Source: Candidatus Nitrospira neomarina
GTDB lineage: Bacteria; Nitrospirota; Nitrospiria; Nitrospirales; UBA8639
NCBI RefSeq assembly: GCF_032051675.1
Contig: NZ_CP116968.1
Location: 2,046,001-2,110,000 of the forward strand
Length of the DNA: 64,000 bases
Direction of reading: 5' to 3'
Part shown: in pieces, positions 20,112 through 27,588 of the stretch
Layout of the letters: each line of letters begins with the position of its first letter
How positions within the stretch are numbered: position 1 is the stretch's first letter
Translations under genes and position numbers: made by a program
Notes under the pieces: model-generated
The model's input: only the letters and a program-made list of their open reading frames with translations
What the model was told of the DNA's origin: nothing
Database searches by the model: none

Positions 20112-20681
20112 TTAATCCTGCAAACGAAAGACTTGATGGCATTTCACACAGGCATGGATGGTTTGCTCAAGGTGAGGGAGGATCTGTTTGAGGTCTTTGG
20201 TCGGGATCACTTCTCCCAGCGCTTCCGCAGCCTGATGATGTGCCATCGCCAGATCATGGTATTCCGGCGGGAATGTGGCACCCTGCTCACGCTGCATGGC
20301 CACATGGTGTTTCGGGAAACCCAGTTCCTCATTTGTCAAAGTAGCCGCCCCGGCAAAATCTTCTCGCCCTAATGCGCCAACGATGGCATCAATGGCTTCA
20401 AGATGCTCTCGCATGGTCAACTTCAGACCCTCCTTGGCAGCCGGAGGGAGATCCAATGTCATGAGTTTTGTTCCCGACATCTTCCGCATGGCAGGATCCC
20501 CTGGGTGTGAGGCATGATGATACATTTCGGCGCTTGAAAGACCAATGCTTACCACCAACATCACCATGATGACCATTCCAGCGCAGGCCTCCCTATTGAT
20601 AGTCCGTCGAATCATGAATGGGTTTTTATTATGCGATTCTAAATCTGGTTTCAGGAGAAAATTCATTATGATGCCAACCAT
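20112..20681 (-). CDS. Monohaem cytochrome c'-like periplasmic protein
   Basis: About 167-189 residues. After a hydrophobic export signal (GMVIMVMLVVSIGLSSAEM) the protein is helical with a single haem site, CVKCHQVFRL, at its extreme C-terminus. That is the layout of cytochrome c' four-helix bundles. Other His/Met candidates for the sixth ligand lie in the helices (HHASHP, HVAMQREQG). Cytochromes c' bind NO or transfer electrons. The ATG at 20681 is 3 bp after the stop of the decayed cytochrome gene, implying former translational coupling; internal ATGs at 20666 and 20615 are possible starts. Confidence 0.78.
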   Translation of the reverse strand: MVGIIMNFLLKPDLESHNKNPFMIRRTINREACAGMVIMVMLVVSIGLSSAEMYHHASHPGDPAMRKMSGTKLMTLDLPPAAKEGLKLTMREHLEAIDAIVGALGREDFAGAATLTNEELGFPKHHVAMQREQGATFPPEYHDLAMAHHQAAEALGEVIPTKDLKQILPHLEQTIHACVKCHQVFRLQD

Positions 20682-20684
20682 TTT

Positions 20685-21038
20685 TTACGGTTTCAGCGAA
20701 CGGATGTAGACAGAGATCATTGAATTGATCATCCTTCATCACTTCCTTAAAACCCACCATAGCTGTCCCTGATCTTCCATTCATGATTACCTCTTTAAGT
20801 TGGGCGTCTGACTTGGACTTGGTATCCTCACTGGCCAGATTGGCGGGAGGAGGATTTAAGTATCCACCATTTCTCCGTCACCTTTCCCCTCCGTGACAAT
20901 GGCCACAGGACTGTCGATACTATGTTTTCCCTTTTTCGATATCCCCGGTTCCGGCAACGGCGAAGCCGGCCATGATTACTCCCAACGCGAGCCCCACGAA
21001 CAGCATCGCACTACTCTTCTTTGATTTACCTTTTTCAT
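20685..21038 (-). pseudogene. Decayed monohaem cytochrome c
   Basis: A clear remnant on the minus strand. An ATG at 21038 has a strong ribosome site (GAGGAGGCCGG). A one-base shift then gives the signal KKSSAMLFVGLALGV and GTGDIEKGKT, followed by a TAG where Ile/Leu is expected. The haem site CGHCH is still present (20893-20907). More frame changes give GKGDGEMVDT, then LNPPPANLASEDTKSKSDAQ and GTAMVGFKEVMKDDQ. A last shift gives SVYIRSLKP and the natural stop at 20685. There is at least one internal stop and several indels. It sits in operon order between two intact cytochrome genes, so it is an in-place loss rather than an import. Confidence 0.85.
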
Positions 21039-21094
21039 CCGGCCTCCTCTGGAATCCCTGCTATGGTTGAGTGACGGCATACGCTTTCTGTTTA

Positions 21095-21613
21095 TTAGCG
21101 ATACCTCATCATGCCCCGGCCCTGGTGCCGTCCGCCTCCCTGAGGACCTCCTCTTCCACCATGGGATCCTCCGGAAAAACTTTCCTCATATTGCATCACG
21201 GTCCATATTTCTTCATCCGAAAGCATTCCACCAAAAGGAATCATCCCGGTCCCCGGCGATCCATATTTGATCACCCAAAAAATTTCCCCTTCCGACCGAT
21301 GTCTCCAAAACCCATGTGACCGGAGTACACGAGGCGGGGGGTTGAGAGTCGCCGCACCCGGGCCATCGCCGCGTCCACTCACCCCATGACAATTGACGCA
21401 CCCACCCTTCCCTTCATATATCGATTTTCCTTTTTCGATAATGTCCGGTGAGGACGGCAACGGGCTCTGCAGCGCTCTGGCTTCAGCCAGCTTGTCCGCG
21501 GAGACCCGGGGCTTCATCATCTGTTGGTGCCCATGTTCTTGAGCCAACACCTGGGATCCACTCACCACCAGCGCTAAGATGAGTCCACTCGCCCATCGAC
21601 ATGCCTGTCTCAT
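21095..21613 (-). CDS. Monohaem cytochrome c
   Basis: A 172-residue periplasmic cytochrome. The ATG at 21613 has an excellent ribosome site (AGAAGGAGGAACA) and starts a signal peptide ending SGSQVLAQ. The haem motif is GCVNCHGVSGRGDGPGA, with a Pro-rich loop (LNPPPRVL) and a C-terminal Met-rich segment (GTGMIPFGGMLSDEEIW) that should supply the axial Met. The tail of about 25 residues is Gly/Arg-rich (GGRGGPQGGGRHQGRG) and low-complexity. It is paralogous to the 22388 cytochrome: both have a segment of the form (P/L)xx(R/P)VxxDxxxxAxxL before the haem. Confidence 0.87.
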   Translation of the reverse strand: MRQACRWASGLILALVVSGSQVLAQEHGHQQMMKPRVSADKLAEARALQSPLPSSPDIIEKGKSIYEGKGGCVNCHGVSGRGDGPGAATLNPPPRVLRSHGFWRHRSEGEIFWVIKYGSPGTGMIPFGGMLSDEEIWTVMQYEESFSGGSHGGRGGPQGGGRHQGRGMMRYR

Positions 21614-21708
21614 TGTTCCTCCTTCTGTTTTTTCTTCTCTGCATCCTACATCGACATGAGGCTTATACAACTTTTCATACCAACCCAGCGTCATCCAGGA
21701 CGTTTCGC

Positions 21709-22305
21709 CTACATCGAGGTTACCGGTTCAATGATTCCGCAGGCATCACGAGCCCCACCGGCACATCCAGGATTGAGTTCGCTATCCTGATCGCAATAGA
21801 GATCTTCATTGGTGTGGATGATGAATGCACTGCCATCTTCATCAAACACGCTCAACCGGCCATCCGATAACGCAACCCGGGTGGTTACCGCATGCAGTTT
21901 CCCCACTCCGTTGACTACCGTGATATTGACCAAATCCCCCATGTGGAAGGGATGATTGAAGTCCGGCGCGTCAGGTGTGGACTTACCAAAGGGTCCGGGA
22001 TCATGATGGCCCTTCGCAGCTCCACACGGCTGACAACTGGCAACCTCATGAATATGGACCGCATGCTTCCCATCCTTTAATCCCTTGACTTCCATCTGGA
22101 CATAGAGTTTTTTGATTCCCTCTTCAGATTCAAATTCTTTGAGAGTGGCGGTTCCCGTAATGGCCGGATCCGTGCATCCTTGAATGGTCGCGTTGGCCGA
22201 TTTCGATATGTCGTGGTTTCCGTAATGACTACACCCCCCAACGACCGCCAACAGAAGAACCGCAAACCCTACCAGCTTACTTCTTCTGAATTGTTGTTCC
22301 CACAT
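21709..22305 (-). CDS. sodC: Cu,Zn superoxide dismutase, lipoprotein
   Basis: Converts superoxide to oxygen and peroxide in the periplasm; 198 residues. The signal ends VVGGC with the lipidated Cys at residue 25, so the enzyme is membrane-anchored. Copper and zinc ligands are in HAVHIHEVASC, HHDPGPFGK and NHPFHMGDL. The C-terminal signature is GGARDACGIIE. The final His of the copper site is likely in FIIHTNEDLYC. It lies between two cytochrome genes with gaps of 82 and 95 bp, all on the minus strand, so it belongs to a periplasmic redox and oxygen-defence cluster. Confidence 0.93.
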   Translation of the reverse strand: MWEQQFRRSKLVGFAVLLLAVVGGCSHYGNHDISKSANATIQGCTDPAITGTATLKEFESEEGIKKLYVQMEVKGLKDGKHAVHIHEVASCQPCGAAKGHHDPGPFGKSTPDAPDFNHPFHMGDLVNITVVNGVGKLHAVTTRVALSDGRLSVFDEDGSAFIIHTNEDLYCDQDSELNPGCAGGARDACGIIEPVTSM

Positions 22306-22387
22306 GATGTCCCTCCTCTGTATATATGATTAAGAGATGAAATCCTTTTACACGACTGCGTGTCTTCTAATGAACAGAGATGGGCCA

Positions 22388-22852
22388 TTATGTTCCTCCG
22401 AAGGTTCGGATGTAGGCGATGATCTGCCAGGCCTCCTTATCCGTAATATACTGCGGCATGTATGCCACCATGTCAGTCCCGTGACTCCCATGAATTAGAA
22501 CCCAGAACAGTTCCCCATCACTTCTGGCTGCCTGCCAGGCCGCATCTGCAAAATTGGTTGGCATTTTGATATCAGGAGGAAAGGTTCGACCCGCGGTCGG
22601 TGCCCCTGTCCCCTCCCAGCCATGACAAAAGGCGCACCAGCCCTTGCCTTCATAAAGTTTTTTTCCGCTCGCAATAAATTCCTCGGTGGGGGTGAAGGGA
22701 TTCGTAAAGGATAGGGCCTGCTCCATACGATCAGACGGGACTCGTGGCTGAAGATCTCCGGCACTGCCCGCCCAAGCCGAGGCACAGGCGAAAGAAACCG
22801 TTACAAGGATGATCCAGACTCTCGATTGCATCTTTTGCCTTAATATTTGCAT
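22388..22852 (-). CDS. Monohaem cytochrome c
   Basis: A 154-residue periplasmic cytochrome and the first gene of the minus-strand cluster. The ATG at 22852 follows AAGGAG. A signal peptide ends SAWAGSAG. The haem site is WCAFCHGWEGTGAP, with a C-terminal Met (DMVAYMPQYITDKEAW) for the sixth ligand. The region before the haem (RVPSDRMEQALSFTNPF) repeats the pattern of the 21095 cytochrome, so these are duplicates. An alternative ATG lies 7 codons further in, at 22831. Confidence 0.87.
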   Translation of the reverse strand: MQILRQKMQSRVWIILVTVSFACASAWAGSAGDLQPRVPSDRMEQALSFTNPFTPTEEFIASGKKLYEGKGWCAFCHGWEGTGAPTAGRTFPPDIKMPTNFADAAWQAARSDGELFWVLIHGSHGTDMVAYMPQYITDKEAWQIIAYIRTFGGT

Positions 22853-23366
22853 CAGGACTGTCTCCTTGGTTGGTGATATAGACTCGGCTCTTACCTGTTT
22901 CCCCATGTTATTCCAAATTACGTGCCAATGTTAAAGTCCGGTTTTTCTACTGTTTTCAGTTTTCAATCATGGAAGTGAGGCAATTTGCATCACACCTTAG
23001 AGTACGCTGATGGACAAATATCCCCAAACCAGGATCCTGTGTTGTGAGGCCGCAATGGGTAGGACTCTAAAACGAAATCCCTTCGGTCCATTAGCAATTT
23101 TCTAGGTTGTTAAGATTTTTTAGATCGTTTAGAAGGGAGAGGATTTGGCGCGACAACGAACCAAATATTCGACAGTCCCGGCCCGAAGGCAACACGGCAG
23201 AAAGCCAGAAACGACGGGGTCATGCAAAGGGAAGAAATGTCGGTGAATCACACGAGGATTCAGGAGCAGGCTGCAATTTAACGGTAAGATCTGGTGTAGA
23301 AGTCCATATCGGCTTGATCGTATGAATGCCAAGTATTTTCTTATGACCGCAGGAGAAGGGTAAGGG
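22853..23366. other. Intergenic region upstream of the cytochrome cluster
   Basis: About 510 bp. It must hold the promoter of the cytochrome/SodC cluster and the 3' region of DUF2130. A frame at 23107-23325 lacks a ribosome site and protein-like composition. No hairpin of note. Confidence 0.5.
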
Positions 23367-24653
23367 TTACAATAATTTTCCGTCGGATTCGTCCGTCGGC
23401 GCGTTTAAAGCCTGAAGTTCCAGCCCTTCAATTTCCTGCAAAGTCTTTCCGGCTATGCCTTGCAGGTCCCCATACATGCCCACGGTCGCCATCATCACCC
23501 GATCAATTTGCTCTTCACGTTTAGCCCATTGTTTCATAATGACTTTCCGCTCCTTATCAAGATCCTCCTTCATCGAGGAGAACCCTTCGACGATCGCTTG
23601 AACCCGTTGCCGGAAGCGCGGACCCATCAAATACTGATAGACCATTTCCATTTTGGTTTGCTGCCCCTCCGAGGCCTGCCGGGCGCAGGCCACCTCCATG
23701 AGCGTATTACGCATGGCAATGGCCAGCGGCAGAGCGACCTTGGGATGAGTGACCCAGACGCCGTCGATGAATTCGAATGTTTCCACTTCTTTGGGTAGGG
23801 CTTGGCTGACGATGATCGCAATTTCAGCTTTGGCCTGCCGCTGATCCTCACGTAACTTGATGAGCCAGCCATCGCTCCAGTTCTTGGTTCTCTTCGATTC
23901 CCACAAGATGGTTCCGCAGGCTTGCCCAAATGGGCCGGCAACCCGGTGCAGCACATCGCCGCCATGCTCGCCTTTGGCCACGGGTGAAACCTGATCCAGA
24001 GGGAATTTCGAGATGAGCATGGCTTCGAGTTCGAGCTCCTGGACTTCGCCCTGAAGTTGTTGGGATCCCTGTTCAGCACGACGCTTGAGTTCTTCAATTT
24101 GTTTTTGCATGGAAGCAATGGTCTGCTCTTTCTCCATGACTTTAAATTTGAGCCCTTCTTCGGCTTCTTTTTTGGCCTGATCCCTGGTGGCGGTGAGTCC
24201 TTCCTGAACGCGCTTTTCTATGGTGAGATCCAATTCGCGTTTGGCGTCATCCAGTTCCCGTTGCTTTCGGAGCAGATCGGCTTGAACTTTTTGTGCTTCC
24301 GAAAGTTTTTCATCCTTTTGTTTAAGAATTTCTTGAATCTCACGTATTTCTTTAGATTTCTGATCGAGATCATTCGAGAGCGCCAGCCTGGCTTTTCTCG
24401 CTTCTTCCGCCGCAATTTTGCTGCGTTCGAGTTTCAGCTTGTCAGCCACTTGCTCTTCGAACCTTTCCTGTGATTTGGCCAGCAGAGCTTCGCGCTCACG
24501 CAAGGCCGCATCCCGCTTGGCGGCATCAGCATCTTTTTGAGCAAGTCGTTGCTCGAACTCCCGCTTGGTGGCTTCGAGAAGAGGGGCCGCGAGCGACTCA
24601 GTCAGTTTGATTTCCGTTTTACACTGCGGGCAGATGATCGTGGGTTCAGTCAT
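23367..24653 (-). CDS. DUF2130 family protein (RmuC-like, possible nuclease fold)
   Basis: A 428-residue cytosolic protein. The N-terminus has a small zinc-ribbon-like Cys pair (ICPQCKTEI). Residues about 30-210 are one long coiled coil, rich in Glu, Lys and Arg. The C-terminal half is the DUF2130 domain, with GTILWESKRTKNWSDGW. The E-x-K in that segment, after an upstream Asp (GGDVLHRV), has the look of a PD-(D/E)xK nuclease core, as in RmuC. No enzymatic activity is established for the family as far as I know. It lies 82 bp after the TIR gene on the same strand. Confidence 0.85.
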   Translation of the reverse strand: MTEPTIICPQCKTEIKLTESLAAPLLEATKREFEQRLAQKDADAAKRDAALREREALLAKSQERFEEQVADKLKLERSKIAAEEARKARLALSNDLDQKSKEIREIQEILKQKDEKLSEAQKVQADLLRKQRELDDAKRELDLTIEKRVQEGLTATRDQAKKEAEEGLKFKVMEKEQTIASMQKQIEELKRRAEQGSQQLQGEVQELELEAMLISKFPLDQVSPVAKGEHGGDVLHRVAGPFGQACGTILWESKRTKNWSDGWLIKLREDQRQAKAEIAIIVSQALPKEVETFEFIDGVWVTHPKVALPLAIAMRNTLMEVACARQASEGQQTKMEMVYQYLMGPRFRQRVQAIVEGFSSMKEDLDKERKVIMKQWAKREEQIDRVMMATVGMYGDLQGIAGKTLQEIEGLELQALNAPTDESDGKLL

Positions 24654-24735
24654 AGCATTTCTTTTTGTTCTTCCATTGAATAATAAACATATCTTTTTTC
24701 AGGGATAGGATCTGAATACTCCGTCCTTTCAAAGA

Positions 24736-25224
24736 TTATTTGACCACGATTTTATCCAAACGGGCTTCGACCTGCCGAAACAATTCCAACGCAAATTGAT
24801 CACGATGAGACCCCGAACATTCACCGTAGGCTTTCGGAGAGGCGAAACGCGTGCGATCCAGCCGAAAGATTTGCGTCTGGAGTAAACCTTTCAGATCATG
24901 ACGTTCCAAATCGATGGGTTGCAACATGACCGGAATGACGGCTTGCCCTCCACTCTTCACAAACTTGGGAAGTTCGTGATCCTGTATATATTGAGATCCG
25001 AGCAACGCAGGACTGATCAGGACCAATCCCACGTCGCACTCTCCCAAGGCATGTTGAATTTCTTCGTGCCATTTCTCCCCTACCAGGATATCGCTATCCC
25101 GCCAGAAGGTATAGTGATACTGCTTGGAGGGCGCGGCCTGCTCTTTAAACTTTTTCAAAAACCGAGTCGCCAGATCACGATTGGCGCGGGCATAGGACAC
25201 AAACACGGTGATGTTTTTTTTCAT
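24736..25224 (-). CDS. TIR-domain protein
   Basis: A 162-residue protein that is a single TIR domain. I chose the ATG at 25224 because it starts directly before strand A, NITVFVSYARANRDLATRF; the frame is open 17 codons further up. Conserved parts are the DSDILVGEKWHEEIQHAL segment with the W-x-x-E Glu that is catalytic in NAD-cleaving TIRs, CDVGLVLISPALLGS (strand D) and YIQDHELPKFV. Bacterial TIR proteins commonly degrade NAD+ in abortive phage defence. With DUF2130 downstream, this could be a two-gene defence unit. There is no signal peptide or membrane segment. Confidence 0.86.
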   Translation of the reverse strand: MKKNITVFVSYARANRDLATRFLKKFKEQAAPSKQYHYTFWRDSDILVGEKWHEEIQHALGECDVGLVLISPALLGSQYIQDHELPKFVKSGGQAVIPVMLQPIDLERHDLKGLLQTQIFRLDRTRFASPKAYGECSGSHRDQFALELFRQVEARLDKIVVK

Positions 25225-26753: not shown

Positions 26754-27153
26754 CACGTGTGTCAGAGCTTTTACCCGTATAAATAAAAAGGAAAATTTTG
26801 TCGCATCTTAAAAGAGTCATTCTTAGTGCTCGGGATTACGTCGTGTAATCTCAAACCTTCCTTCTCCACCTCACTACCATCAACCCTTCCCTAACTACCA
26901 GACTGTTTTTTTTCAAGACGAATTATGGGACCAAGACTTATCCTTTGGACATAATTCGGATTCTTCTTTCAAAATTATCTCTACTGCCTGTAACCAGTCG
27001 TTCATTAACATTCAATTAATCGTCTCTTCCGAAGGTTCCCAATAATTGTCCGCTTTGGACTGTCTCTTGTCGTTTTCAAAGAGTAGGGAAGAAGGGCGTG
27101 AATAGACCATATTTTATTTACTTTACACACGTGCTCAATGGAGGAGTTTGCCA
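26754..27153. other. Intergenic region, AT-richer
   Basis: No gene seen. A near-perfect palindrome (CTGACAC/GTGTCAG, 26750-26765) with a 2-base centre overlaps the end of the pseudogene. It could be an operator but has no partner. The upstream part of the 27154 gene lies here. Confidence 0.45.
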
Positions 27154-27588
27154 ATGAAAAAGTATGGGATTATTACAGTCATGATGTTTTTACTCAGTAG
27201 CACATTTGCTGCTCAGGGGATGGCTCAAAGTCATCTCAAAACCACTGATTTTTGTCAACAACATGCCGAATTATGGGACAAGGATGGGAGAATCACACTC
27301 GAGGGGCATAAACTGTTATATCTTGAGCATCCGGACTGGTGGTTTGATGCACAAAACAAAGAATGGAAAGAATGGCCCACGCAGAAAACTCATTGGTCCC
27401 TCGACGAACATCAATATCTGAACACTGATGGACCGGACTGGTGGTTTGATGCACAAAACAAAGAATGGAAAGAATGGCCCACCAACGAAAACCAGGATTC
27501 ATTGGAATGCCATAAAAAAATCTATTTAAGTGGACCCCAATGGTGGTTTGATGCAAAAACTAAGGAATGGAAACCGTGGCCAAAATAA
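27154..27588 (+). CDS. Secreted protein with three 34-residue tandem repeats
   Basis: A 144-residue protein. The ATG at 27154 has a strong site (GGAGGAGTTTGCCA), and a signal peptide follows, ending FAAQGMAQ. The mature protein is built from three repeats of exactly 34 residues (about 49-82, 83-116, 117-144). Each has a core WWFDAQNKEWKEWP preceded by a His/Glu-rich segment (LEGHKLLY; LDEHQYL; LECHKKIY). The third is diverged (WWFDAKTKEWKPWP) and ends the protein. The aromatic-rich repeats recall carbohydrate- or surface-binding modules, but I recognise no family. Two Cys (CQQ, and CHKK in the third repeat) could pair. Confidence 0.75.
   Translation: MKKYGIITVMMFLLSSTFAAQGMAQSHLKTTDFCQQHAELWDKDGRITLEGHKLLYLEHPDWWFDAQNKEWKEWPTQKTHWSLDEHQYLNTDGPDWWFDAQNKEWKEWPTNENQDSLECHKKIYLSGPQWWFDAKTKEWKPWPK
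27331..27482 (+). repeat. Identical 50 bp direct repeats, period 102 bp
   Basis: Bases 27331-27380 and 27433-27482 are identical over 50 bp and are offset by 102 bp, the exact repeat period of the 27154 gene. A third, diverged copy starts at 27535. The identity at third codon positions shows a recent in-gene duplication. Confidence 0.9.

Follow-up and report, generated by a model that had tools for sequence, protein, structure and literature searches.

A stand-alone TIR gene is exclusively linked to a gene for a predicted PD-(D/E)xK nuclease of the DUF2130 family in Candidatus Nitrospira neomarina and its relatives

The window, a stretch of 64,000 nucleotides from the 4.8 Mb single-contig genome of Candidatus Nitrospira neomarina, carries on its minus strand a gene for a stand-alone TIR protein and, downstream of it, a gene for a DUF2130 protein (Table 1). 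Linkage in all TIR-bearing genomes of the host's family, spacers as short as 14 bp, rearranged flanks and purifying selection make it well supported that both genes form one functional unit. The likeliest role of this unit is that of a two-component defence or abortive module, a reading held with about even confidence. In such a module the DUF2130 protein, a predicted coiled-coil PD-(D/E)xK nuclease, would recognise or cut foreign or damaged DNA, and the TIR protein would serve as an NAD+-cleaving effector which is either switched on by DUF2130 or acts jointly with it. A preceding sequence-only reading had proposed the pair as a possible anti-phage unit. This role, with phage as the presumed trigger, is plausible: the conservation of the pair under selection and the occurrence of DUF2130 relatives in defence operons speak for it, whereas the location of the pair outside defence islands speaks against it.

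Table 1. Features of the TIR-DUF2130 locus (window positions).
Feature	Position	Strand	Basis or remark
Stand-alone TIR protein, putative NAD+-cleaving effector, 162 aa	24736..25224	-	Pfam TIR_2, profile, fold, purifying selection
DUF2130 protein, 428 aa: CPxC knuckle, long coiled coil, PD-(D/E)xK core, C-terminal helices	23367..24653	-	PF09903, model, fold
Spacer of 82 bp, TIR stop to DUF2130 ATG	24654..24735	-	14 to 570 bp in relatives
E84 codon, probable catalytic glutamate (Y79-x4-E84, WxxxE equivalent)	24973..24975	-	AbTir alignment, 16/16 orthologues
E55 codon, not conserved	25060..25062	-	D, A, A, T or A in 5/16 orthologues
D233 to K254 codons; predicted active-site set D233, E252, K254	23892..23957	-	Invariant in 82/82 DUF2130 proteins

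The start of the TIR protein corresponds to an internal ATG within an ORF of 179 aa. Pfam assigns the protein to TIR_2 (PF13676, E 3.4e-14), and the ThsB model of PADLOC matches it at 7e-9. A search of the PDB with the single sequence gave no match; with a profile of 23 TIR rows, the CRISPR-associated TIR protein Cat1 (6.7e-10) and the NAD hydrolase AbTir (1.7e-8) were found. The predicted model (pLDDT 78) is closest in fold to the TIR domain of SPARTA (Z 14.1), followed by AbTir (13.5) and SARM1 (13.2). In AbTir and SARM1, catalysis uses the glutamate of a WxxxE motif. The sequence-only reading had assigned this role to E55, the last residue of the W-x-x-E stretch W52-H-E-E55. This residue is ruled out by its variation among the 16 orthologues (Table 1) and by the profile alignment, which places the AbTir glutamate at E84; the adjacent E54 is likewise replaced in three of the 16. 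Loss of the TIR glutamate in close relatives, which had been named as a finding that would speak against the proposal, is thus seen for E55 and not for E84, which is unchanged throughout. E84 is therefore the likely catalytic residue. Judged from its sequence and model, the protein combines the TIR fold with a conserved, probable catalytic glutamate of NADase TIRs, the exact WxxxE spacing not being kept, and is a putative NAD+-cleaving effector. A scan of viral contigs with the TIR protein alone revealed no relative.

The DUF2130 protein matches PF09903 with an E-value of 4.8e-78 (262 bits, compared with a Pfam cut-off of 26.7). Its AlphaFold model (pLDDT 82) starts with a small N-terminal strand pair bearing the CPxC knuckle, which is followed by a coiled coil of about 200 residues, an alpha-beta core and C-terminal helices. 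The core (approximately residues 200-330) resembles PD-(D/E)xK nucleases, with Z-scores of 10.5 for VC1899, 10.3 for McrC, 9.6 for Can1 and about 8.9 for Hjc. Within this core, the aspartate and the (D/E)-x-K residues expected for the active site of the superfamily are present as D233, E252 and K254, each invariant in 82 of 82 aligned rows. The long coiled coil and the PD-(D/E)xK core anticipated from the sequence are thereby supported, and ORF coordinates and Pfam confirm that the TIR gene precedes DUF2130 with both genes on one strand. On the basis of the model, the protein is predicted to be a PD-(D/E)xK nuclease. Counting against the defence-module reading, a Foldseek search with the model returned nothing under 0.001 (best match MspJI, 8e-3), and the best hit of a PDB profile search (E 0.025) was noise of the coiled-coil type. 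No family of PADLOC 2.0 matches DUF2130 at E 0.1.

Among 48 genomes of the host's family, a TIR orthologue is present in 16, comprising 15 of the 20 host-genus genomes and one from another genus, and DUF2130 is present in 29. Leaving the query itself aside, the TIR orthologues are 79-98% identical. By coordinates, the next gene downstream of TIR on the same strand is DUF2130 in all 16 genomes, and none of the 48 contains a TIR orthologue without DUF2130. Four genomes of the host genus (G172, G176, G182 and G185) carry neither gene; since the orthologue of the flanking dehydrogenase is missing there too, they are uninformative, and the missing pair was not used as evidence. In G185 the contig bearing the superoxide dismutase (SOD) gene stops after 3565 bases. 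The pair occurs in all 15 genomes of the genus in which the locus is assembled; in G173 it is cut by the end of the contig, where DUF2130 is still present. Both genes are under purifying selection, with a median dN/dS of 0.087 for TIR and 0.063 for DUF2130, and the TIR copy of G181 is interrupted. The dN values of the two genes are correlated (r 0.76), a correlation that shared ancestry alone would give. The spacer of the window contains no terminator-like site on the minus strand, and in a promoter and terminator scan such signals were no commoner than in shuffled sequences.

In a sister genus, the corresponding site carries DUF2130 with no TIR beside it (L217-L219), so that TIR probably joined it later. 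In addition, the TIR label requires two changes on the DUF2130 tree, a quick one with long branches among the viral rows, and is compatible with a single origin. These observations, together with the mostly vertical synteny, are also what would be expected if TIR had inserted a single time next to a pre-existing DUF2130 gene and the arrangement had then been inherited in the absence of functional coupling. That the two are mere neighbours is nevertheless improbable, because the linkage persists in 16 of 16 genomes over distances at which synonymous sites are saturated, three loci have spacers of only 14 bp, and the pair is intact between different flanks in L212, L214 and L215. Even less probable, and in our view very unlikely, is a toxin-antitoxin pair in which DUF2130 restrains a TIR toxin. 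The order of a small putative toxin followed by its partner, their constant association and the lack of any TIR orthologue without DUF2130 in the family would fit such a pair, but DUF2130 is widespread without TIR and retains its nuclease residues there, which suggests that it has an independent function.

The context of DUF2130 was analysed further in the loci of the best 80 of 566 confirmed relatives, which are not a random draw. At least one of seven defence-type families, i.e. SNF2 helicase (DrmD-like), type III-like methylase, OLD-like AAA_15, AAA_13 (PDC-S06), SIR2, HerA and SMC-like proteins, lies within about 6 kb of DUF2130 in 32 of these loci, at least two are found in 19, and none in 48. 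The same families are absent from 39 random Nitrospirota windows (40 were drawn, and L247 was dropped owing to overlap with a DUF2130 locus); as the seven families were chosen because they recur, 32/80 versus 0/39 denotes rarity elsewhere and not unbiased enrichment. Of the DUF2130 loci titled Nitrospirota, 9 of 23 have a defence-type partner. SIR2 is encoded directly downstream of DUF2130 in 8 of the 80 loci; an OLD-like protein and AAA_13 take this place in 6 loci each. Several of these genes overlap DUF2130 by 4 bp. On the tree, these partners are scattered nearly as in shuffled data, with 7, 8 and 7 changes for 8, 9 and 8 rows, respectively, which indicates repeated pairing. Among 189 immediate neighbours from 98 of 103 loci (simple ORF calls; L038 was not detected, and L041, L050, L051 and L052 are duplicates), Pfam identified AAA_15 13 times, AAA_13 11 times, SIR2_2 10 times and SNF2 six times.

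TIR proteins of the present kind are rare in this context. Outside the window, only one of the 80 loci (L067) contains one, and in a sample of the phylum TIR lies beside DUF2130 in one of 23 genomes by coordinates. That DUF2130 occurs mostly without TIR, and has its partner downstream elsewhere while TIR lies upstream here, counts against the defence-module reading. Such a distribution, combined with a location outside defence islands, had been expected to weaken the proposal; the first part is borne out, and as to the second, defence-type genes accompany DUF2130 in 32 of the 80 loci and are lacking in 48. Taken as a family, DUF2130 has the appearance of a modular defence nuclease that has gone unnoticed. 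More tentatively, and as a possibility that we consider less likely than not, it may be a portable sensor-nuclease which heads modular defence operons. It would then have been joined many times to different killer proteins, namely SIR2-HerA, OLD-like proteins, PrrC-like AAA_13, SMC-like ATPases and, in the host genus, a TIR NADase, all of which would receive a common DNA-state signal from it.

The family also extends to mobile elements, with 46 plasmid records, mostly rhizobial, seven records from Helicobacter prophages and 20 viral contigs. Two neighbours of viral DUF2130 genes were tested, and both encode DNA polymerase A (L147:7137-9053 and L151:7251-9305, the polymerase gene following DUF2130), suggesting that DUF2130 belongs to the replication region of some phages. 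In several phyla, SIR2-HerA immediately follows DUF2130, the genes frequently overlapping by 4 bp (L096, L097, L105, L114, L136, L071, L090 and L130). A second DUF2130 copy of G147 is split over two frames (L037, G147:C1:3729366-3730104).

The locus of the pair is mostly syntenic, with a dehydrogenase gene upstream and cytochrome and SOD genes downstream. In the window, the latter comprise a Cu/Zn superoxide dismutase gene flanked by genes of the cytochrome c type (20112-22906), and many relatives retain this arrangement downstream of the pair. In L214 and L215 different genes are found next upstream and the cytochromes downstream are missing. The sequence-only reading had looked to a recurrence of the same two genes side by side, especially in defence islands. 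The adjacency recurs in 16 of the 48 family genomes; a location inside a defence island was rejected, given that none of 15 pair loci contains any of the seven recurrent families and that the PADLOC scan of 58 window ORFs yielded, besides TIR, only single matches and no ThsA. The pair thus occupies, for the most part, a conserved and vertically kept site among cytochrome and SOD genes, unlike most defence genes, and this counts against the defence-module reading.

Five relatives have a metabolic gene cluster upstream of the pair. Its genes were considered as further parts of the system and rejected, since they encode fatty-acid hydroxylase, GH3 and mandelate-racemase-like enzymes and a fourth protein without Pfam match. 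In L206 (3577-7677; also in L209, L211, L212, L213 and L039) the inserted cluster consists of genes for a membrane protein, a fatty-acid hydroxylase, a GH3-like and a mandelate-racemase-like protein, and two small genes that by impression from the sequence resemble a ParD/ParE toxin-antitoxin pair (L206:7816-8424) lie between this cluster and TIR. Elsewhere in the window (27148-27588), a protein of 146 aa displays three near-repeats around 'WWFDAQNKEWKEWP' and has no Pfam match.

The surroundings of the pair give rise to the main rival reading, a chromosomal stress or DNA-damage module fixed in the genus, in which NAD+ would be lowered or a nucleotide signal made when DUF2130 meets damaged DNA, for example under oxidative stress. 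Presence in all genomes of the genus with an assembled locus, the conserved position next to genes for cytochrome c and Cu/Zn SOD and the lack of defence genes around the pair are consistent with it. On the other hand, DUF2130 relatives are found in clear defence operons, and most known examples of such TIR proteins come from immunity. Moreover, the neighbouring genes vary while the pair stays constant, and thus no link to SOD is shown. A stress module is judged unlikely, though less so than the other alternatives.

Compared with known systems, the pair resembles Thoeris in that a small TIR protein matching the ThsB model is encoded beside a larger partner; this partner is ThsA in Thoeris and the DUF2130 nuclease here, and no adjacent ThsA is present. 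With SPARTA it shares, in addition to the TIR fold, the concept that a TIR NADase is driven by a partner which senses DNA. SPARTA, however, consists of TIR-APAZ and a short Argonaute, whereas the TIR protein described here lacks APAZ and is encoded between DUF2130 and a dehydrogenase. AbTir and SARM1 share the fold, and AbTir the position of the catalytic glutamate, but the TIR protein of the pair carries Y79-x4-E84 instead of WxxxE and no sensor domain of its own, and its activity is putative. SIR2-HerA and OLD-like (AriA/GajA-type) genes, which directly follow DUF2130 in other loci, represent other effector families, and the TIR gene of the window lies on the opposite, upstream side. The nuclease core is common to VC1899, McrC, Can1 and Hjc, to which DUF2130 adds the N-terminal CPxC knuckle and the coiled coil. 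In the accessible parts of the open literature on TIR two-gene, SIR2, HerA and helicase systems no TIR-DUF2130 system was found; in the accessible parts DUF2130 appears as table entries without a function, and COG4487 is named.

The TIR-DUF2130 pair is a variant of TIR-effector modules without a matching PADLOC 2.0 model for its DUF2130 part. If the defence reading holds, DUF2130, a widespread domain whose function is unknown, would be assigned the role of a nuclease component common to many defence operons, and its pairing with TIR would be the simplest, two-gene form of such modules for testing. Two of the exchangeable effectors of DUF2130 operons, TIR and SIR2, belong to NAD-consuming families. 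Should DUF2130 control several unrelated effectors, it would constitute a general trigger responding to foreign or damaged DNA, and one that is missing from PADLOC 2.0.
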